A stretch of 53,151 bases of DNA from an uncultured beta proteobacterium (GTDB lineage Bacteria > Pseudomonadota > Gammaproteobacteria > Burkholderiales > SG8-41). Every line of letters starts with the position of its first letter. Position 1 is the first letter of the stretch. The notes below the pieces were generated by a model that made no database searches, had not been told where the DNA came from, and saw only the letters and a list, made by a program, of their open reading frames with translations. The position numbers and the translations under genes are program-made. The stretch spans positions 1-53,151 of the forward strand of contig CAIZLW010000012.1 of NCBI GenBank assembly GCA_903933915.1, in the 5' to 3' direction. Of the stretch, positions 33,618-51,499 are shown in pieces.

Positions 33618-34709
33618 TCAGGCCGCGGGCGACGCCGTCAGGATTTCTGTTGCCAGACGGTCGATGGCGTCGGCCGTGTGCGCATTGAGCTGGTGGCGTG
33701 CGGCCTGCGGCAGGCGCGGGTAATGATTGACGATGGCCCGCGTGTAGGCCGGATCATAGTGCTTGACCAGCAGTTCTTCCGTCAGCCGGCTCCACTGGCT
33801 GTCGCGCGCCATGTCCTGCCAGTTGTCGATGACCACGCCGCCATGCAGTGAACGCAGGCAGTCGAGCTGGGTATTGAGCAGTTTGGCGTCGCTGAGAAAA
33901 TGCACGTATTCGTCCATCAGCAGCGCCACGCGCACGGGAATCGGCGCTTCGATGACCACGCAGGCGCTTTGCCACATGGCATCAATCAGCTCCGGCGGCA
34001 CGCGCAGTTTGCCGATCTTGCGGCTTTCCGATTCCACATACACCGGCCGCTCCGGCGACAGGTGTTTCAGCGCATGCCAGACGCGGCTTTCAAACATTTT
34101 CTGCGCCGGTTGCGGTGCATCGGGCAGATTGCCGAGCACCGAACCGCGGTGCGCCGCGAGTTCTTCCAGATCCAGTACCTGGGCGCCTTGTTCCCTCAAT
34201 GCATGCAACAGCCGGCTCTTGCCGGTGCCGGTCATGCCACAGACCACGCGCCAGTCAAAACGCGCGGGCAGGGTGGTGAGTTCTTCGATAATGGCGCGGC
34301 GGTAGGCCTTGTAGCCGCCGTCGAGCTGGCCGACCTTCCAGCCGATCTGCGCCAGCACATGCGCCATCGCGCCGCTGCGCCCGCCGCCGCGCCAGCAGTA
34401 AATCAGCGGCCGCCAGTCGCGCGGCCGATCGAGCATGATGGCGTTGATGTGGCGCGAAATATTCGCGCTGACCAGCGCGGCGCCGATTTTTTTGGCGTCG
34501 AACGAAGAAACCTGTTTGTAGATGGTGCCGACGCGTTCGCGTTCGGCGTTGTTCAGCACCGGCAGATTGATCGCGCCGGGGATGTGGTCTTCGGCGAACT
34601 CACCCTCTGAACGGACGTCGATAATCTCGTCAAAATCATCGACTTGTGCTACGGTGACCGCGCTCGCTGAGCGGCCCCTGTGGGTCGCGTGTTCCGTGGC
34701 GTCAGACAT
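33618..34709 (-). CDS. mnmH: tRNA 2-selenouridine synthase (SelU/MnmH)
   Basis: A 363-residue enzyme that replaces sulfur with selenium at the wobble uridine of certain tRNAs, using selenophosphate from SelD. The N-terminal rhodanese domain contains IIDVRSEGEFAEDHIPGAIN and the active-site Cys105 in YCWRGGGRSG. The C-terminal P-loop domain has GMTGTGKSRLL near residue 158. I choose the ATG at 34709; a TTG four codons upstream is an alternative. It is divergent from selD across a 50-base gap, so promoters overlap and the pair form a selenium unit. Confidence 0.95.
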   Translation of the reverse strand: MSDATEHATHRGRSASAVTVAQVDDFDEIIDVRSEGEFAEDHIPGAINLPVLNNAERERVGTIYKQVSSFDAKKIGAALVSANISRHINAIMLDRPRDWRPLIYCWRGGGRSGAMAHVLAQIGWKVGQLDGGYKAYRRAIIEELTTLPARFDWRVVCGMTGTGKSRLLHALREQGAQVLDLEELAAHRGSVLGNLPDAPQPAQKMFESRVWHALKHLSPERPVYVESESRKIGKLRVPPELIDAMWQSACVVIEAPIPVRVALLMDEYVHFLSDAKLLNTQLDCLRSLHGGVVIDNWQDMARDSQWSRLTEELLVKHYDPAYTRAIVNHYPRLPQAARHQLNAHTADAIDRLATEILTASPAA

Positions 34710-34759
34710 GCTGCGGTTCAATGATGATCAGCGTTGCGTACATGGCGACATTCTAAATC

Positions 34760-35821
34760 ATGAACACCCCCATCGATGCCTCTTCTCTCCGCCTTACCCA
34801 GTTTTCCCACGGCGGTGGCTGAGGCTGCAAACTGACGCCGGCGTTGCTGAGCGAGGTTCTGGCTAAAACACCCGCTGCACTTCCTTTCAAGGATCTGCTG
34901 GTGGGCACGGAGTCGAGTGACGACGCCGCGGTGTATCGCATCAACGATACGCAGGCGATTGTCGCGACGACGGATTTTTTCACGCCCATCGTTGATGACC
35001 CGTTTGATTTCGGCCGCATTGCCGCGACCAACGCGATCTCCGATGTGTATGCCATGGGCGGCAAGCCCTTTATGGCACTGGCCTTGCTCGGCTATCCGAT
35101 CGGCAAAATACCGATGGAATCCGTGCAACGCATCATTGCCGGCGGTCATGCCGTGTGCGCTGAAGCCGGTATCCCGATTGCCGGTGGCCACTCGATTGAC
35201 GCGCCGGAACCGATTTACGGCCTGGTCGCGCTGGGTCTGGTGCATCCCGACCGCGTCAAACGCAATGACCGTGCAAAAGCCGGTGATGTGCTGATCCTCG
35301 GCAAGGGTCTCGGCGTCGGCATCATGAGTGCCGCGATGAAAAAAGGGCAGTTGAGTGATGCCGCTTACCAGCAGATGCTGGAGAGCGCGACCAAACTCAA
35401 CACGCCCGGCATCGAACTCGGTGCGATGGACGCCGTGCATGCACTGACCGATGTCACCGGTTTCGGCCTGATGGGCCATTTGCTGGAAATCTGCAAAGGC
35501 AGCGGCCTGGTGGCGCAGTTGGAGTGGTCCAAGGTTCCGGTGCTGTCGCTGGCGCAGCCGCTGGTCGAAGCCGGCTTTGTCACCGGCGCTTCGGATCGCA
35601 ACTGGGCGAGCTACGACAAACTGGTGCAGTTGCCGGAAGGCGACAGCGCCAACATGCGCAAGCTGATGACCGATCCGCAGACCAGCGGCGGTTTGCTGGT
35701 GGCCTGCGCGCCGGAAGCGGCGAATGCGGTTCTGGAGATTTTCCGCGCCAAGGGCTTTGCCCAGGCGGCGGTGATCGGACGGCTGGAAGCCGGCGCGCCC
35801 GGGGTGAAGGTCAGCAAATAA
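34760..35821 (+). CDS. selD: Selenide, water dikinase SelD, itself a selenoprotein (UGA = Sec21)
   Basis: A 353-residue enzyme that makes selenophosphate, the selenium donor for Sec-tRNA and for MnmH. The frame from the ATG at 34760 reads MNTPIDASSLRLTQFSHGGG, then an in-frame TGA at 34820-34822, then GCKLTPALL. The motif HGGG-(U/C)-GCK is the SelD active site, and the UGA falls exactly at the catalytic Sec/Cys. The rest of the chain (DFFTPIVDDPFDFGRIAATNA, GGHSIDAPEP) is normal, so the whole span is one gene and a call starting near 34844 would be truncated. A SECIS must lie just after the UGA; a weak GCT-GCAA/TTGC-AGC pairing is the best I see. Convergent with tesA. Confidence 0.93.
34820..34822 (+). 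other. UGA selenocysteine codon in selD
   Basis: In-frame TGA between HGGG and GCK codons, at the position occupied by Sec or Cys in all SelD enzymes. Conserved SelD sequence precedes and follows it without a frame change. Confidence 0.92.
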
Positions 35822-43045: not shown

Positions 43046-43981
43046 TCATCTTATCGATAATTGATCAAACAGCATGCCCTGGATTTGTTCTCGAGCTAAT
43101 GAAGGCGCAAACAACTCGATGAAATCATAGGTGTATGACCGTTGGTAAGTTCCTTTTCGTAACGCGATCTTGATTACATCTGGCTTGAATAAGTGACTGG
43201 CTTCAATCGCGACCAAGTCCGAATCGTCTTTTGAGTTATGCGCAAGTGATGCGACGATCGCAAGACCCAGGCCCGCCCTGACATAGGTCTTCATGACATC
43301 AACGTCTGTTGCGGTGAGCACGAAATTGGGTGAAAGCCCCTTGTTTTCGAAGGCTTCCAAGATGCGACGATGTACGGTGAATGGGGCTTCGTAGGTGATA
43401 AGTGGATGCTTAGCAAGCTGTGACAGAGTGGGCTTTTTAACGGAAGCCAATGGATGATCTTTTGGCGCAAGAATGATGCGGTGGTGTTTGTGGCAAGGGA
43501 AAAACATGATGTCTTTGGGACGCTCGACAGGCTCCGCGCATATTCCGATGTCAGCATTGCCGGAGGCGACCCAGGTGGCAATTTGATGCGGATCCCCTTG
43601 CCGCAGCACTAATCGGACGTTTGGGTATTGGGCAATGAAGGCGCTGACGACCTTGGGTAGGGAATAGCGGGCATGAGTGTGGGATGCAGCAACTATGAGA
43701 TTTCCACGCTTTTCCTTGCCATGGACCTTTCCCGCCTGACTGATATTCTCGATCTCGAATAACACCTTGCGGGCGCTTTCAAGAACCGCTTCACCTGGCC
43801 CGGTAAGGCCCAGGATTCGCTTCTTTGATCGCACAAATAGGGCCACGTCCAACTCGCTCTCCAAGGCAAGCATGTGACGGCTGACGCTGGGCTGAGAGGT
43901 ATGCAGCGCCTTTGCGGCGGCCGAGATGTTCAGGTTAGCGTTGACGACTTCGCAGAACAGCTGAAGGTGGCGCAAGTTCAT
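43046..43981 (-). CDS. LysR-type transcriptional regulator, CysB-like
   Basis: A 311-residue regulator. Residues 1-60 form the winged helix-turn-helix (MNLRHLQLFCEVVNANLNIS and AAKALHTSQPSVSRHMLALE). The remainder is a periplasmic-binding-protein-like effector domain. The sequence resembles the CysB/Cbl branch, for example ASHTHARYSLPKVVSAFIAQYPNVRL and FVLTATDVDVMKTYVRAGLGLAIVAS. CysB relatives sense sulfur-containing metabolites; here the ligand is unknown. I start at 43981 because upstream in-frame residues do not match the family. It is divergent from the selenoprotein operon, the classic arrangement for the regulator of the adjacent genes. Confidence 0.9.
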   Translation of the reverse strand: MNLRHLQLFCEVVNANLNISAAAKALHTSQPSVSRHMLALESELDVALFVRSKKRILGLTGPGEAVLESARKVLFEIENISQAGKVHGKEKRGNLIVAASHTHARYSLPKVVSAFIAQYPNVRLVLRQGDPHQIATWVASGNADIGICAEPVERPKDIMFFPCHKHHRIILAPKDHPLASVKKPTLSQLAKHPLITYEAPFTVHRRILEAFENKGLSPNFVLTATDVDVMKTYVRAGLGLAIVASLAHNSKDDSDLVAIEASHLFKPDVIKIALRKGTYQRSYTYDFIELFAPSLAREQIQGMLFDQLSIR

Positions 43982-44122: not shown

Positions 44123-44752
44123 ATGAGCACGATTGGTGTTGAAGCGACTATGCGGCTGGTAAACCCATTAGGCTTTCCGGACAAGATGCAGCACGCACTT
44201 GCGGCGAGGCTCAAGTCCCTGGAGGGCAAGACGATTGGGATCATCGACAACATCAAGCCCAATGCAGGATTGTTCTTGAGCTACATTGAAGAGATGCTGC
44301 TAAAAGACAATCCGACCCTTCGATTCATGAAGGTGAGAAAGAATTTCACCTCCAGCCGATTGATTGCGGATGAACTGGTCGGAAAGGTGCAAGGCGTTGT
44401 AAACGCCTGGGGTGATTGAGGGGGTTGCACGTCGTGGTGTATCCACGACTCAGCCTACCTGGAAAAGCATGGGGTTCCGACATCTACGATTGTCTCCACC
44501 GCGTTCCTGACCCCGGGTCGTTTGGCAGCCAAGAATCTGCAGATCGACGCCTTGCCTCTGCTGGTTACACCGCATCCGCTTAATGATCTGAATCCTGAGG
44601 AAGTTCGCGAGCTCGCCCGGGTGTCCTATCCGGTTGTGCTTCAGCAGTTATGCAGCCAGCAACCATTGCCGCTGGATACTCGCATTGATTTTGTTCATCC
44701 CGCCGTCCGCAGGAAACAGGCGAACGCTGCCAAATCGGGAGAGGCGAAATGA
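44123..44752 (+). CDS. UGSC-type selenoprotein with in-frame UGA (Sec99), motif U-G-G-C
   Basis: One 209-residue protein interrupted by a TGA at 44417-44419. The frame before it ends GVVNAWGD and the same frame continues GGCTSWCIHDSAYLEKHG to a TGA overlapping the next gene. The first part (98 residues) has an IGIIDNIKPNAG strand; the second part ends in a Lys/Ala-rich tail. The pattern GD-U-(G)-x-C-TSW matches what I know as the UGSC (seleno)protein family, with Gly in place of Ser. Sec99 and Cys102 form a redox-type U-x-x-C pair; the catalysed reaction is unknown. A strong GGGGGAGAGG site precedes the start. A SECIS-like hairpin follows the UGA. A nonsense-mutated cysteine gene is the alternative. 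Confidence 0.85.
44417..44419 (+). other. UGA selenocysteine codon
   Basis: In-frame TGA between the GGT-GAT and GGG-GGT-TGC codons, at the first position of a U-G-G-C motif. The frame stays open for another 110 codons of coherent protein. Confidence 0.83.
44423..44455 (+). promoter_or_regulatory. Bacterial SECIS hairpin
   Basis: A perfect seven-base-pair apical stem GTCGTGG/CCACGAC (44431-44437 and 44443-44449) closes a five-base loop TGTAT. A lower stem GGTTG/CAGCC (one G-U pair) extends it. The GU of the loop falls at +20 and +21 after the UGA, the same distance as in the E. coli fdhF element by my count, and SelB recognises such a loop GU. The hairpin lies entirely inside the coding sequence, as bacterial SECIS elements do. 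Confidence 0.75.
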
Positions 44753-45840
44753 ACGGTCCTAACTTCGAAAAATCCATCATCGAACTCGAAAACTCATGGG
44801 ACGCAGTCAACGCCTGGTTTCTTGAGAACGACATGACCGACGGACTGCCCATCATTCCTCCAACGGAAGATCGGGTGCGTGCGATGACCAGCTACGTTGA
44901 AACCGCGCTGGGATGGAAGCCGCAGGACGTGATCGGAAAGATTGCGCCGAAGAACGGTCTTGCAACAATTGAAAAGATAGCGGCGAACGCAGTCATGGCG
45001 GGTTGCCGCCCTGAATACATGCCGGTGCTGATCGCCTGTGTAAAGGGGGTGGCGGAGCCCAAGTTCAACTTGGACGCTTTGCAAACATCCACGCACAACA
45101 CTTCGGTTCTACCGATCGTGAATGGCCCGATTTGCAAGAGCATCAACCTGAATTACGGTTACAACTTTACTGGGAGCAGCTGGCAGAGCACCTCGACGAT
45201 CGGGCGTGCACTGCGTCTGGTCATGTCCAACGTCGGCGGCACGCCTGGCTCAATCAATATCCATACGCAGGGGCACATTGCCCGTTACGAGCATTGCATT
45301 GCGGAGAACGAGGATGAGAATCCCTGGGAGCCGCTGCATGTCGAGAAGGGATTCCCCGCAAATACCAGCGTGGTGACCCTGATCCCCGCATGCCCTGCGG
45401 CGATGATTGATGATAACGGGGGCAGCCAGACCGCGAAGGAGCTGCTGCGCACCATCGGAAGTTCGATTGCCTATGTCGGAAACCGGAATATCAATGGCGA
45501 CGGGCAACCCCTGCTGATTTTATGCCCGCAACATGCTCGGCTGCTCGCGCTGGGCGACTACAGCAAGGCCGATGTTAAGCGTTTTATCTGGGAGCGTGCG
45601 CGCGTTCCGTCAGGAGACGTACCCCGTGGAAATCTGACCAGTTTTGGCAAGAAAAACTTGAAGTTCTATGACCAGTTTAGCGATGACTATGGCTATCCTA
45701 TTTCCGACAAGGCTTCGGATATCGAGATAGTGGTTATGGGCGGAACAGGTACCCACAGTTTGTCAGTGCAGACGAGGCTGGCCTGTGAAAACGTTTCGGT
45801 GCCGATCCTTAAAAAAGATGGTTCTCCATTCGTCGTTTAG
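44749..45840 (+). CDS. Uncharacterised conserved protein partnered with the UGSC selenoprotein
   Basis: A 363-residue soluble protein with no signal peptide or membrane helix. It overlaps the selenoprotein gene by four bases (ATGA), implying coupled translation and a shared function. Distinctive stretches are DGLPIIPPTEDRVRAMTSYV, VMAGCRPEYMPVLIACVKGV, STHNTSVLPIVNGP, a Gly/Ser/Asn-rich segment, and EDENPWEPLHVEKGF. I recall similar proteins of unknown function in diverse bacteria but know no enzymatic assignment. Five cysteines (Cys86, Cys97 and others) could take part in redox chemistry with Sec99, but no CxxC or cofactor motif is seen. No function is assigned. Confidence 0.85.
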   Translation: MNGPNFEKSIIELENSWDAVNAWFLENDMTDGLPIIPPTEDRVRAMTSYVETALGWKPQDVIGKIAPKNGLATIEKIAANAVMAGCRPEYMPVLIACVKGVAEPKFNLDALQTSTHNTSVLPIVNGPICKSINLNYGYNFTGSSWQSTSTIGRALRLVMSNVGGTPGSINIHTQGHIARYEHCIAENEDENPWEPLHVEKGFPANTSVVTLIPACPAAMIDDNGGSQTAKELLRTIGSSIAYVGNRNINGDGQPLLILCPQHARLLALGDYSKADVKRFIWERARVPSGDVPRGNLTSFGKKNLKFYDQFSDDYGYPISDKASDIEIVVMGGTGTHSLSVQTRLACENVSVPILKKDGSPFVV

Positions 45841-46044: not shown

Positions 46045-47016
46045 ATGCACAAGGCCATTTGCGCTGGGCTGATGTTTGGGCTGATGGGAAGCATTGCAGG
46101 TCATAGTATGGCGCAGACCTATCCGACAAAACCGGTGCGATTGATTGTTCCTTTTGCCCCGGGCGGAACTACGGAAGTGCTGGCTCGAATGATTGGCCAA
46201 AAAATGGGCGAGCATTTGGGCCAATCCGTCGTCGTTGATACCCGTCCCGGTGCCTCGGGTAGCCTAGGTGCCGGCATCACTGCAAGCGCGTTGCCCGACG
46301 GATACACGTTGTTATTCACTTCGCTTTCGCCGATTGTGATCAACGTGAATTTGTCGAGCATGAAGCTCACCTACAACCCTGAAAAGGATCTGGCGCCAGT
46401 ATCGGTAATTACCAAAGTACCGTCGGTTTTTACGATTCATGCAGACTCGCCAATGCGCAGTATCAAGGATCTGATTGCATCCGCGAAAGCCGCCCCAGGC
46501 AAGATCTCGTACGGATCCTCCGGCGTTGGAAGCGTTAACCATCTCATCGGAGAGATGTTCAAGCTGAATGCCGGTGTGGATTTGTTGCATGTTCCTTATA
46601 AAGGGGCTGGACAGGGTTTAGTCGGTTTGATGACCAAGGAGGTGCAGATGATCCTTGCCGCACCTCCAGCCGTGCTCCCCGCCGTTCGAAACAATCAGTT
46701 ACGAGCATTGGCCGTTTCAAGCGCCAATCGTTCTCCGGCTATGCCCAATGTTCCAACGGTTATTGAGTCTGGGATTCCCGGGTTTGATCTTTCAGCATGG
46801 TATTGCCTGATGGCGCCGGCCGGTACTCCGCGTCCGATCATCGACAAAATTCGCGCTGCCTTGATAAAGACCATAACTGTGCCTCCGGTTTCTGATCGGT
46901 TGATAGGAGAGGGTGCTGCACCGGAGCCAACCACACCCGAAGAGTTCGCAAAGCTCATCCGGGCAGACCTCAAGATCTGGGCCAAGGCCGTCCAGGTTTC
47001 CGGTGCCGATAAGTAG
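46045..47016 (+). CDS. Bug-type tripartite tricarboxylate transporter receptor (TctC family), first copy
   Basis: A 323-residue periplasmic solute-binding protein with a signal peptide ending in SMAQ (cleavage near residue 24). Family motifs: YPTKPVRLIVPFAPGG at the mature N-terminus, DTRPGASGSLGA, ALPDGYTLLFT, and HVPYKGAGQ. Bug proteins bind carboxylates or related small acids and hand them to TctAB permeases or act as sensors. No TctA or TctB gene is visible. A strong GGAGGAGG site precedes the start. The 204-base gap before it contains only a 40-codon ORF that I do not support. Confidence 0.93.
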   Translation: MHKAICAGLMFGLMGSIAGHSMAQTYPTKPVRLIVPFAPGGTTEVLARMIGQKMGEHLGQSVVVDTRPGASGSLGAGITASALPDGYTLLFTSLSPIVINVNLSSMKLTYNPEKDLAPVSVITKVPSVFTIHADSPMRSIKDLIASAKAAPGKISYGSSGVGSVNHLIGEMFKLNAGVDLLHVPYKGAGQGLVGLMTKEVQMILAAPPAVLPAVRNNQLRALAVSSANRSPAMPNVPTVIESGIPGFDLSAWYCLMAPAGTPRPIIDKIRAALIKTITVPPVSDRLIGEGAAPEPTTPEEFAKLIRADLKIWAKAVQVSGADK

Positions 47017-47058: not shown

Positions 47059-49080
47059 ATGTCGATGCTGTTGCAGCAGCCAGGGATGCTGGGCACTCTG
47101 AAGCTTAAGAACCGGGTAACGATGGCGCCGTTAGGCACCAATTTCAGTACTAGCGATGGACTGATTACCGAGAGAGACAAGGCTTACTACGCCGAGCGTG
47201 CGAAGGGCGGTGTGGCCATGATAATGACCTCGGCAATGGGCATAACGGGCCGCGCCCGGGCTCATCGCTTTACCCCTGTTTGTTATCACGACCGCTTTAT
47301 CCCGGGGCTGGCCAGCTTGGTGGAGACCATTAAGGCGCATGACTGCGTGGTATTCGGGCAGTTGAATCATCACGGTGCGCTGCTGCATGAACCGGGAATG
47401 GACCCAGTGGGCCCATCCGACTGGATCAATCCGAAAACCGGAGACGCCGTGCGCCCGATGACAATCCCGGAAATTGTGGACGTGCAGAAGAACTTTGCCA
47501 CTGCAGCGCGGCGACTATGGATTGCTGGCTACGACGGTGTCGAAATCCATGCCGCAAACGGCTATTTATTCCAGCAGTTTTTCACGCCACGGATCAATAA
47601 GCGTGCTGATGCGTATGGTGGTTCAGTGGAAAACCGCATGCGCTTTCTGATTGAAACCGTAAAGCGCATGAAGGATGCCGCCCCGGATTTGCACCTCATG
47701 GTTCGTTTTAGCGTCAGCGAATTCACGGCCGACGGCTATTCGGAAGAGGATGCAATCGTTCTGGCGCAGAATCTTGAGCGTGCAGGCGTGGTTGCTCTTG
47801 ATTTGTCCGGTGGGAGCAATGAAACGCCGCAGTTATCGAAATTCTGTATTCAGACGCCTTCGTTTCCCAGGGCCTGCCTGGCGCCCTATGCCAAGCGCAT
47901 CAAGGATGCTGTTTCAATTCCCGTGATAGTCGCTGGCCGGATTGTTGAGCCAGCAGATGCCGAAGGCGTTTTGGCATCGGGGAGTGCGGATTTCATCTCA
48001 CTCGGACGCGCTTTGTATGTTGATCCACACTGGTGCTTGAAAGCGTTTGGTCATGTCAAAGCCCCTGTTCGCCCCTGTATTGCGTGTAATGTTTGCCATG
48101 ACCGCCTTTCCTCAGAAAAGGATGTGTCATGCGTTCAGAATCCGATGATGGGAACAGCATTTGAATCGCTGGAATTGGCTGAGCCGCATTTGTTTCCACG
48201 ATCGTCGGCGGCTGCAAAAAGAAGTCGTGTGCTTATTCTGGGTGCCGGGGTCAGCGGCGTTGAGACGGCTCGTGTAGCTGCTGGTCGAGGGCATCAGGTT
48301 GAAATTTGGGAGAAAAGCGCGCAAGTCGGCGGTCAGATTCACCTTGCAACAAGCGCCCCTGATAAGAAGGAAGTGGCAGGAGCGTGGACCTACCCCTATG
48401 AAGAGGTCGTCGCTCTTAAGGTGCCGATCAGAACCAATACTTTAGCAACGGCTGTGAGTATCAAGGCCTTTAACCCCGACATTGTCGTCCTGGCAACTGG
48501 GGCTACGCCGAAGGCGCCGCCTTTTGAAATATCCAAGGTGGGTAATCAGACCGCTGTTCTCCAGGCCTGGGATGTCTTGAGTTCTCCGGAGCGCATTCCA
48601 GCGGGCGCTGAGGTCACCATCGTTGGCGGTGGCACGGTGGGTTTGGAAACCGCAGACTTGTTAGTCAAGCGTGGCTGCAGTATTGCGCTGATTGAGCCAA
48701 GGGCAGGACTTGCCGAGGGCATGTCAAAGAGTAACCGCATGGAAGTGATCGATCGGTTACGGGCAGCCCAGGTGAATATCCTGGTCAAGACAGAGGTTGT
48801 CGCAGTCAAAAATGGGACTTTGACTTTGCGTGATGTGGGCGGTGCGGAACAATCCCGTTCAATAGGCGAATTTCTGATTATTGCTGTCGGAGTGCAACCG
48901 AATCTTGAAATGACCGCATTGCTTGATCAAGTGGGGGTGCCCTACATTGCAATTGGGGATTGTTTTCAGCCCGGGGATTTCATGAGTTGCTTAAGGGATG
49001 CGCGCATGGTCGGCGCCAGCATTGATAATCATGCGGCGCATCCCATTCGACTGCAACCTGACATGGTGCGGTTAAGCTAA
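47059..49080 (+). CDS. Old yellow enzyme/2,4-dienoyl-CoA reductase/trimethylamine dehydrogenase-like flavin and Fe-S oxidoreductase
   Basis: A 673-residue multidomain enzyme. Residues 1-335 form an FMN-binding TIM barrel (LKNRVTMAPLGTNF, GVEIHAANGYLFQQFF and SLGRALYVDP). A 4Fe-4S motif C-x2-C-x2-C-x11-C follows at Cys340, 343, 346 and 358. Two nucleotide-binding domains complete it (LGAGVSGVETARVA near residue 392 and VGGGTVGLETADLL near 520) for FAD and NAD(P)H. Relatives reduce enoyl groups, demethylate amines or carry out other reductive steps; the substrate here is unknown. The histidine pair of the barrel (ILE-HA) is present. It probably receives the substrate imported through the Bug system. 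Confidence 0.92.
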   Translation: MSMLLQQPGMLGTLKLKNRVTMAPLGTNFSTSDGLITERDKAYYAERAKGGVAMIMTSAMGITGRARAHRFTPVCYHDRFIPGLASLVETIKAHDCVVFGQLNHHGALLHEPGMDPVGPSDWINPKTGDAVRPMTIPEIVDVQKNFATAARRLWIAGYDGVEIHAANGYLFQQFFTPRINKRADAYGGSVENRMRFLIETVKRMKDAAPDLHLMVRFSVSEFTADGYSEEDAIVLAQNLERAGVVALDLSGGSNETPQLSKFCIQTPSFPRACLAPYAKRIKDAVSIPVIVAGRIVEPADAEGVLASGSADFISLGRALYVDPHWCLKAFGHVKAPVRPCIACNVCHDRLSSEKDVSCVQNPMMGTAFESLELAEPHLFPRSSAAAKRSRVLILGAGVSGVETARVAAGRGHQVEIWEKSAQVGGQIHLATSAPDKKEVAGAWTYPYEEVVALKVPIRTNTLATAVSIKAFNPDIVVLATGATPKAPPFEISKVGNQTAVLQAWDVLSSPERIPAGAEVTIVGGGTVGLETADLLVKRGCSIALIEPRAGLAEGMSKSNRMEVIDRLRAAQVNILVKTEVVAVKNGTLTLRDVGGAEQSRSIGEFLIIAVGVQPNLEMTALLDQVGVPYIAIGDCFQPGDFMSCLRDARMVGASIDNHAAHPIRLQPDMVRLS

Positions 49081-49113: not shown

Positions 49114-50466
49114 ATGGATAGTGTGCTCAAGCGATTGGTGGATTTCTCGGCGTATCTTCGATACGAAGACCTCGGTGGGGATGTTGTTCACGCCTGCAAA
49201 CAGCGCGTCACTGACTATGTTGGCTGCGGACTCGGGGGATATGACTCGACCCCGAGCGCTGTAGCCCGTTCCATGGCAATGCGCGTCACCGTACTCACGG
49301 GATCGAGGGTGATCGGCACCGCACGTAGAACGTTGCCGGAGCTGGCGACTTTTGCGAACGGGGTGGCGGCACGTTACCTTGACGGAAACGATAATTTCCC
49401 GAGCGGCGGGCATCCCAGCGACACAATCAGCGCCCTGATGGCAGTTGCAGATTATTCTCGTAAGGACGGCAAGTCATTAATTCTGAGCGTTGCCCATGCC
49501 TATGAGATCTATTACTGCATGTATCAGTCGCTAAAGCTGCGCGATAAAGGCTACGACTACGTTTTGTATACAACAGCGGCAAGCGCTGCTGGGGCCGCAC
49601 GTTTACTGGGACTTGATGCGGAGCAGTCAGGCCACGCAATCTCTCTGGCAATCACCCCTAACCTTGCGCTTGGCGTGACAAGACGCGGGCATCTCTCAAT
49701 GTGGAAGGGATGCGCTGGGGGAAACGCGGCAAGAAATGGCGTATTTGCAGCTATTCTTGCATCAGAGGGGTTAACCGGCCCTGAACATCCCTTCGAAGGT
49801 TCCCATGGACTTTGGGAGCTCGTTGACGAGCACGCAATGTCTCCACTGGCAGGTTCCAGTGCAGAGCTTAAAGTGTTGCAGGCATGCACAAAAAACTTTT
49901 TGACGGAATACCATTCCCAGTTACCCGTTGAGCTTGCCTTGCAGTTGTATAATGAAGTGGCAGTCGAGGATATCCAGTCAATCAGGATTCATACTTACTG
50001 GTTTACATTCAGTGAGATCGGAAATGAGCCGGAAAAATGGCATCCGACGACTCGTGAAACAGCGGATCACAGTCTGCCGTTTATTATTGCTGCAGTTCTC
50101 CTTGATGGTCGATTCAGCGACGAAATATTTTCGGACCAGCGGCTGCAGGATCAACGAATTCATGATCTGGCCGACAAGATTTCAATTTTCGAGGACCTGG
50201 AATTCTCCAAGCGAGCCCCGAAAGAGCTGCCTTGCAGAATTGAAATTCAATTAAAGGATGGATCTGTAAGATCGGCGCAAGGAACCTATCCAGTGGGGCA
50301 CTGCAAAAAGCCGATGACAGATCGGCAAATAGAAGAGAAGTTTGTCGGACTGGCTGGCCGCGCATTGAAGGCTCAACGTGTGTCGCGAGTGCTTGGCGAG
50401 CTTGGCCGACTTGAATCGATCACAAATTATGATCAACTCTACGATTCATTGATCGTCGAACAGTAG
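49114..50466 (+). CDS. MmgE/PrpD family protein
   Basis: A 450-residue cytoplasmic protein of the MmgE/PrpD fold, which includes 2-methylcitrate dehydratase, cis-aconitate decarboxylase and several epimerases and isomerases. Typical elements are CKQRVTDYVGCGLGGYDSTPSAVAR, FANGVAARYLDGNDNFPSGGHPSDTISALMAVAD, and GKSLILSVAHAYEIYYCMY. The C-terminal lid domain (IQSIRIHTYWFTFSEIG, KWHPTTRETADHSLPFIIAA) is intact. It lacks neighbours of the methylcitrate cycle, so it is probably not PrpD proper but a dehydratase or isomerase acting on a di- or tricarboxylate-like intermediate. Confidence 0.92.
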   Translation: MDSVLKRLVDFSAYLRYEDLGGDVVHACKQRVTDYVGCGLGGYDSTPSAVARSMAMRVTVLTGSRVIGTARRTLPELATFANGVAARYLDGNDNFPSGGHPSDTISALMAVADYSRKDGKSLILSVAHAYEIYYCMYQSLKLRDKGYDYVLYTTAASAAGAARLLGLDAEQSGHAISLAITPNLALGVTRRGHLSMWKGCAGGNAARNGVFAAILASEGLTGPEHPFEGSHGLWELVDEHAMSPLAGSSAELKVLQACTKNFLTEYHSQLPVELALQLYNEVAVEDIQSIRIHTYWFTFSEIGNEPEKWHPTTRETADHSLPFIIAAVLLDGRFSDEIFSDQRLQDQRIHDLADKISIFEDLEFSKRAPKELPCRIEIQLKDGSVRSAQGTYPVGHCKKPMTDRQIEEKFVGLAGRALKAQRVSRVLGELGRLESITNYDQLYDSLIVEQ

Positions 50467-50512
50467 CGACTGGAAGTGGTCTGAAGTGAATTTCAAAACG
50501 ACGGGAAAAACC

Positions 50513-51499
50513 ATGCCTGAATCATTGTGTCGATCCCGTATGCTTGCGCTCGCTGGCGTTATTGCTTCATTTATACCTGCGATCTCTTTTGGTCAGGACT
50601 TTCCTTATAAGCCAATCAGGATTATCGTTGGATTCGCACCGGGCGGGTCTAATGATATTGTCGCTCGTATTGTGGCGCCGCGATTATCCGAGCTTCTTAA
50701 GACCAATGTTGTCGTTGAAAATCGCCCTGGTGCCAATGCGATGATTGGGACGGATGCTGTGGCAAAAGCCCCTCCCGATGGTTACACCCTTGGCTTGGTC
50801 GGTGTAAGCAATCTCATCCTCAATCCACTGCTTTACCCGAAGAATCCCTATAACGCGATCAATGATTTCACGGGTTTAACGGCCGTTGGTGTGACGCACC
50901 AAGTCCTCTCAGTGCATCCTTCGGTACCAGCGCGAAATCTCAAGGAACTGATTGCATTGGCTAAGGCGAAGCCCGGGCAGTTAAACGTAGGCTCCCCCGG
51001 GGCGGGGGGTTTAAAACACCTGACACTGGAACTTCTTAATACCCTGGCGCATACACGCATTGAGCATATTGCCTATAAGGGTGGCGGCCCTGCGTTAATG
51101 GATGCTGTGGGTGGCCAAATTCATGGGGTGTTAGTTGATATCGCCGCTCCATACCCGTATATCAAGCAGGGGCGATTGCGTGGAATTGCAGTAACCGGGG
51201 AAGGTCGTGCCAAGCAATTGCCGGATGTGCCGACCGTTGTTGAGCAAGGGATCAAGATGGTTTCACTCAATTGGTTCGCGCTTGTCGCGCCAGCAAAAAC
51301 CCCACAGATTGCGATTGATCGTCTGCACTCTGGTTTGGTCAGGGCTTCGCAGGCGTCCGATGTCAAGGAACGTTTTGAAGCCATAGCAGTGGAATCCTAT
51401 TCTCACCCGTCCCCAGACGCATTCCAGAAATTCGTGCGTGACGAATATGCGCGTTGGGGAAAAGTTGTTAAAGACTCTAACGTTGCTGCTCAGCTTTGA
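50513..51499 (+). CDS. Bug-type tripartite tricarboxylate transporter receptor (TctC family), second copy
   Basis: A 328-residue periplasmic binding protein with a signal peptide ending SFGQ. Motifs: FPYKPIRIIVGFAPGGSNDIVAR, VVENRPGANAMIGTDAVAKAPPDGYTLGL, and HIAYKGGGPALMDAVGGQ. It is a diverged paralogue of the receptor encoded at 46045. A GTG at 50486 would add nine residues; I prefer the ATG, which gives a compact signal peptide. Two receptors in one operon may bind two related substrates. Confidence 0.92.
   Translation: MPESLCRSRMLALAGVIASFIPAISFGQDFPYKPIRIIVGFAPGGSNDIVARIVAPRLSELLKTNVVVENRPGANAMIGTDAVAKAPPDGYTLGLVGVSNLILNPLLYPKNPYNAINDFTGLTAVGVTHQVLSVHPSVPARNLKELIALAKAKPGQLNVGSPGAGGLKHLTLELLNTLAHTRIEHIAYKGGGPALMDAVGGQIHGVLVDIAAPYPYIKQGRLRGIAVTGEGRAKQLPDVPTVVEQGIKMVSLNWFALVAPAKTPQIAIDRLHSGLVRASQASDVKERFEAIAVESYSHPSPDAFQKFVRDEYARWGKVVKDSNVAAQL

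Follow-up and report, generated by a model that had tools for sequence, protein, structure and literature searches.

A UGSC-containing protein with a UxxC motif, found also in fusion with a part termed 'Unknown_1', is already in print (PMC2398784). The passages of that paper drawn on here, in which the family was catalogued by 2008 at the latest, place UGSC among the commonest aquatic selenoproteins and suggest a Trx-like fold. According to excerpts of a 2026 review (PMC13188914), UGSC belongs to the families with largely uncharacterised functions; the same excerpts describe the UxxCxxC motif of GrdB and its role, and give the largest bacterial selenoproteomes as 57 and 63 genes, counted over all families. 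A link between UGSC and GrdB was not apparent by title in the open-licence papers covered that mention UGSC, selenoprotein and glycine reductase.

The window, i.e., the whole 53,151-nucleotide stretch of DNA from an uncultured beta proteobacterium that was analysed, contains a UGSC-family gene, the frame of which is open apart from one TGA (residue 99) until a TGA stop codon terminates it at 44750-44752 (Table 1). Gene calling with translation table 11 returned only the ORF 44123-44419 of 98 residues, and starting from the first TTG past the TGA, the downstream fragment has 76 residues; both sizes are those which the initial annotation, made from the sequence alone, had predicted for conventional calling.

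Table 1. Features of the window discussed in the text.
Feature	Position	Strand	Remarks
mnmH (tRNA 2-selenouridine synthase)	33618..34721	-	
selD	34760..35821	+	in-frame TGA 34820-34822 (HGGG-U-GCK)
LysR-type regulator, CysB-like, divergent	43049..43981	-	L074 has a copy at the equivalent position (85% identity)
Predicted UGSC-family selenoprotein gene, U-G-G-C subfamily	44123..44752	+	209 residues, Sec99; PF24696 match
Predicted selenocysteine codon TGA	44417..44419	+	29/29 orthologues; Cys in Natrinema and Halalkalicoccus homologues
Predicted SECIS element	44420..44460	+	apical stem 44431-44437/44443-44449, loop GU 44439-44440; fold, codon freeze, covariation
Partner gene	44749..45840	+	363 aa, no significant Pfam/NCBIfam match; start overlaps UGSC stop (ATGA)
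TctC substrate-binding protein (tripartite tricarboxylate type)	46045..47016	+	
Flavin oxidoreductase, old-yellow-enzyme (OYE) and pyridine-nucleotide domains	47059..49080	+	
MmgE/PrpD family protein	49114..50466	+	
Second TctC substrate-binding protein	50486..51499	+	

Close homologues of the UGSC protein were found in 21 of 149 relatives (own genome counted), amounting to 25 matches with that of the window, all of which contain an internal TGA. A scan of named genome contigs yielded 13 further loci, on contigs that were, bar one, titled as Betaproteobacteria or Burkholderiales MAGs; locus L081, on a contig titled Bordetella parapertussis (MAG), duplicates locus L070, and its title may be misassigned. 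U-G-x-C was present in the same frame in all 37 retrieved orthologue loci. For comparison, a set of 29 orthologues was compiled from the window, L050-L073 and L083-L086, with nine named-contig loci (L074-L082) left out as duplicates of loci from the relatives' genomes. The TGA is kept in 29/29 of these, in line with the initial reading of it as lying in frame between the halves of one protein, and opens a U-x-x-C motif as had been stated there, namely U-G-G-C in 28 and U-G-A-C in one (L073). A further Cys seven residues past the Sec position is found in 27/29 (U-G-G-C-x-S-W-C).

Downstream of the TGA, the hairpin GTCGTGG-TGTAT-CCACGAC was found as initially described, with seven perfect pairs and the loop GU at +20/+21, the spacing of bacterial SECIS elements; folding of the 44-nt stretch yields -21.8 kcal/mol (z = -3.32), a value that none of 200 shuffles equalled. 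Across the 29 orthologues, the stem codons are TCG in 29, CAC in 28 and GAC in 29, the single CAT exception still pairing as G-U. Essentially one-codon usage thus holds for the three stem columns, compared with 0/51 other comparably invariant residue columns, and mean codon entropy was 0.07 bits versus 1.20 bits (rank test p = 0.002). Among 60 distinct sequences of the window's SW class, pairing was seen in 98.3% of 420 stem cells, and 12 cells were changed on both sides (five G-C to A-U, five G-C to C-G, two U-A to G-U). Stem covariation was assessed by five measures in all, two of them less striking: the covariation score was 0.111 versus 0.037 when shuffled, with 0/500 shuffles reaching 0.111 and a slid maximum of 0.053, and the count of pairs changed on both sides was matched by 13/500 shuffles and the number of pair types by 122/500. 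Of 63 distinct SW-class sequences, 61 have GT at +20/+21. Hairpins of the U-G-x-C-P-A class are in a different register and are at best 78% paired (41 distinct sequences). An Rfam search returned no SECIS family, with matches at chance level only.

The own genome, a 3.80-Mb assembly in 246 contigs (completeness 100, contamination 7.19), was searched for selA, selB and selC, a check that had been suggested along with the initial reading, and all three were found on one contig (C77), with selA, selB and tRNA-Sec scoring above cut-off; ARAGORN reported a tRNA-SeC with anticodon TCA on this contig. SelD and MnmH, the presence of which in the window had been pointed out, are indeed encoded there (Table 1). 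The selD gene is an in-frame-TGA gene itself (LTQFSHGGG-U-GCKLTP), its table-11 ORF beginning past the TGA at TTG 34844; the RNA downstream of this TGA folds no better than shuffles (z -0.37). Based on the retention of the TGA in 29/29 orthologues, frozen synonymous sites, a covarying SECIS element and complete Sec machinery, TGA 44417-44419 almost certainly encodes Sec, which makes 44123-44752 a selenoprotein gene.

The UGSC protein matched Pfam PF24696 over the whole domain with 132.8 bits (gathering cut-off 25) and NCBIfam NF041046 with 117.3 bits, under the equivalog cut-off of 125. The likeness to UGSC proteins with Gly for Ser, which the initial annotation had noticed, therefore stands as to family but not as to distinctiveness: of 121 distinct UGSC domains across all retrieved loci, 116 contain U-G-x-C; at x, Ser is the most frequent residue (42), followed by Gly (37), Thr (24), Ala (7), Asn (5) and Val (1). 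With Gly being ordinary among relatives, U-G-G-C was dismissed as a novelty. Cys three residues past Sec was present in 116/116 Sec genes, the search motif having demanded that Cys.

As for Cys or Sec at residue 99, for which a check of homologues had been proposed, the Sec-free homologues L247, L249, L250 and L101 carry Cys. Neither this result nor the search for selA, selB and selC brought the refutation for which the initial annotation had named them as tests. Four of 14 plasmid records with a UGSC match were inspected (L247-L250). Natrinema zhouii, a haloarchaeon, has VVNAYGD-C-GSCTSWC where the window has VVNAWGD-U-GGCTSWC; the haloarchaeon Halalkalicoccus jeotgali has AYGD-C-GSCSSW and Neorhizobium galegae GH-C-STC, and the bacterial locus L101 reads LSD-C-GSCTSC. 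The fourth record, plasmid p2-T1 of Acidovorax sp. T1, retains both the TGA and the hairpin seen in the window; its annotation lists the relative only as a hypothetical protein of 96 residues, terminated at the TGA.

A fused UGSC-partner copy on contig C131 of the own genome (27271-27780) is devoid of both Sec and resolving Cys (DGGTATSWG); in its partner half, GM replaces GC, so that the Cys normally present there is gone as well. This paralogue is possibly a non-catalytic or repurposed copy.

PF24696 is rare, with matches in 4/299 genomes of a phylum-wide sample (own genome counted). The own genome has 12 matches, i.e., ten with one TGA, the C131 copy without Sec and a contig-end fragment; 39 were counted in G047 and 29 in G038. 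In the relative G021, 57 matches were found in an unfinished 330-contig assembly (completeness 98, contamination 2), 51 with exactly one TGA, three with TGA and another stop, and three with none. From 40 of its regions, 50 distinct Sec genes were read; matches on its contigs C45, C307 and C7 are outside these regions. The single-family count in G021 approaches the largest published bacterial selenoproteomes.

A second gene accompanies UGSC, which, like the likeness to GrdB, is absent from the initial annotation of 44123..44752, the selenoprotein reading of which holds. Searching the partner and 20 relatives against Pfam and NCBIfam gave no convincing family, the only matches being stray single-member ones with E values of 0.028 and above; because the copies of the two databases used have no model, the gene is missed in annotation. 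Within the retrieved sequence, the partner start was found at 26/29 orthologue loci, with the ATGA overlap in 24/26. Of the 12 partner copies in the own genome, 11 have UGSC sequence alongside, which is a complete domain in ten cases and, on C104, a fragment that the partner precedes; partner fusions comprise three selenoproteins and the Sec-free C131 copy. The twelfth copy, on C105, is an orphan with no UGSC domain within its 3954-base locus (L092). For the UGSC gene on C211 no partner was seen, the contig ending 111 bases upstream. Over 58 partners, D31, A78, G85, G126, G152, R153, N161, E186, W193 and G201 are invariant, and C86 is Cys in 56/58, Met taking its place in the C131 copy; as the partners L092 and L152, without a Sec neighbour, keep this Cys, C86 is not simply tied to Sec.

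Taking as paired any partner longer than 600 bases and at most 400 bases from the Sec gene, 49/50 UGSC Sec genes of G021 are fused to or beside a partner homologue (32 fused, 11 UGSC first, six partner first). The fusion alignment comprised 23 fusions, leaving out L121 and L131, which have TAG besides TGA, and several near-duplicates. Mirror-tree comparison of UGSC and partner distances in G021 gave r = 0.939, whereas 1000 shuffles did not exceed 0.152. Where the genes are fused, such agreement comes about automatically; when only the 11 unfused pairs with UGSC first were taken, r was 0.869 and the highest shuffle value 0.794, a narrower margin. UGSC and partner also adjoin in two haloarchaea. 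We conclude with confidence that UGSC and its partner form an obligate two-component unit.

Two other accounts of the locus were weighed. The gene might be decayed and its TGA either a genuine stop or the product of faulty sequencing, as truncation by ordinary gene calling would suggest and as the C131 paralogue, truly without both Sec and Cys, exemplifies; given a TGA in every one of the 29 orthologues, downstream synonymous sites that are frozen, a SECIS element that covaries and a complete Sec machinery, such decay is most improbable. Likewise, the partner might be merely co-transcribed with a UGSC protein that acts alone, to which the orphan partner on C105 and the UGSC gene on C211, seen without a partner at a contig end, would lend themselves. 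Fusion in 32 of the 49 G021 pairs, the occurrence of both gene orders, the agreement of the trees and the joint presence in two haloarchaea argue against independent action, making it very unlikely, and favour the two-component unit.

In the neighbourhood, TctC homologues were found at 12/13 named-contig orthologue loci (absent: L074), the OYE homologue at 1/13 and LysR at 1/13 (E 1e-15), several of these loci being short. Neighbours other than TctC vary among orthologues, and a conserved substrate operon was discarded on this ground; for the same reason, the substrate is not readable from context. In G021, a TctC gene was located at most 1.9 kb from 38/50 UGSC modules compared with 37.7% of random placements, a contrast that may be inflated because the controls (20 regions of 15 kb) were hand-picked from contigs lacking UGSC matches. 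In the own genome, 40 neighbouring ORFs were assigned to many different catabolic families, mostly with one match each, and the haloarchaeal pair in L247 is surrounded by genes for a CoA transferase, a lyase, an amidohydrolase and TctC.

Profile comparison by hhalign of 114 UGSC sequences (domains with fewer than 140 profile positions and non-U domains left out) with GrdB, the profile of which was made from four sequences only, gave a score of 49.0 and a probability of 90.4% over ~97 columns, spanning the helix and the C-terminal region with Sec aligned on Sec. In controls, 200 column shuffles reached at most 25.9 and the reversed profile 18.3; with the GrdB motif masked, 34.4-35.6 was obtained at a probability of 40-48%. 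By class, U-G-x-C-P-A sequences scored 56.0 against GrdB and the window's SW class 41.4 (74%); against a PrdB-like set, the values were 45.9 and 17.4, the latter equalling background. TctC gave 17.9 with the UGSC profile and a set of 24 thioredoxins 16.3, within the shuffle range; a thioredoxin relation was accordingly set aside on profile score, i.e., on sequence and not on structure. The difference between 49.0 and 16.3 makes the GrdB link likely and leaves the thioredoxin link without sequence support. Judged by these profiles, the UGSC domain is probably a relative of the GrdB-type Sec domain. A PDB sequence search retrieved no significant chain for UGSC, partner or GrdB relatives.

A Pfam scan of the UGSC protein (E 0.01) had PF24696 as sole match and no PF07355, so the protein is described as working like GrdB rather than as a member. 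At E 1e-8, PF07355 had no match in the own genome and matches in 37/120 relatives. At all 24 PF07355 loci (L173-L196), a TGA closes the frame right past the final conserved strand, and with this TGA read as Sec, the sequence goes on as U-G-T-[SC]-T-R-C-G or U-P-N-C; the Sec half is absent from PF07355 matches because the profile stops just short of this TGA. In loci L177-L196, the selenoprotein is PrdB-like, carrying U-P-N-C and a C-terminus that is much extended; it is present in most of the 37 PF07355-positive relatives. The partner shows no profile similarity to GrdE (15.5), GrdB or PrdB and was rejected as a relative of these; hence, the other half differs from that known for GrdB. GrdE-GrdB-like pairs, named by reading of their sequences, lie beside TctC in L217 and L218, in the latter also beside a PrpD-like gene.

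On balance, we favour a two-component GrdB-like reductase, in which UGSC would be the Sec half and the 363-residue product the other half. The substrate would be an imported small organic acid, held by the invariant D31, R153, N161 and E186 of the partner. The Sec99 selenolate, located where a strand ends and a helix starts (U-G-G-C-x-S-W-C), would attack the bound acid and bring about reductive cleavage of a C-N, C-S or similar bond; Cys102 (or Cys106) might then resolve the adduct to a selenenyl sulfide, after which the enzyme would be reset by a reductant of the thioredoxin type. Each paralogue might serve its own imported substrate. Reductive substrate cleavage by the UGSC-partner enzyme is put forward tentatively, its substrate, the bond cleaved, the resolving Cys and the reductant being inferred by analogy with GrdB and from context. 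With similar reserve, the genes may represent two-component GrdB-like selenium reductases of a class not recognised so far, which radiated in one family of Betaproteobacteria as a substrate-diversified catabolic toolkit, each copy with its own uptake protein and with more than 50 genes in one genome.

Against this reductase stands the reading of UGSC as a thioredoxin-fold thiol/peroxide oxidoreductase, with the partner as protein substrate or reductant. UxxC is a common redox motif, the literature suggests such a fold, and a Trx fold is compatible with the sequence evidence alone; the thioredoxin score lies inside the shuffle range, far below that for GrdB, and 50 paralogues with their own partners and a TctC context would be left unexplained, which renders this reading rather unlikely. 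Of comparable, perhaps marginally lower, probability is a Se-dependent catabolic enzyme in which Sec acts as the nucleophile of a non-reductive reaction of the transferase, lyase or dehalogenase type. The catabolic neighbourhoods with their differing enzymes and the invariant polar residues of the partner would suit such chemistry; the Cys at +3 from Sec in 116/116 genes, albeit required by the motif, and the Cys forms suggest redox resolution.

The partner, the GrdB-like domain and the catabolic context make UGSC testable as an enzyme. The selenoprotein itself is cut by annotation, as on p2-T1. If the proposed reductase holds true, selenium in these bacteria would serve substrate breakdown and not antioxidant defence.

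Compared with the known systems, the protein of the window shares with the UGSC family (PF24696/NF041046) the whole-domain match and Sec within U-G-x-C, and differs in Gly for Ser, the extra Cys of U-G-G-C-x-S-W-C and a score below the NF041046 cut-off. With thioredoxin, it has a CxxC-type motif in common, whereas the profile score is that of background. The D-proline reductase PrdB-like proteins likewise carry U-x-x-C right past a similar strand and are approached by the U-G-x-C-P-A class, unlike the SW class of the window, which remains at background. GrdB of glycine/betaine/sarcosine reductase (component B, PF07355) is matched over ~97 columns, Sec on Sec, and GrdB genes in relatives also have TctC and PrpD-like neighbours (L218); UGSC, however, is without the N-terminal part of GrdB, and in place of GrdE, the subunit of the glycine reductase complex, it has a partner that profile comparison does not place with GrdE.
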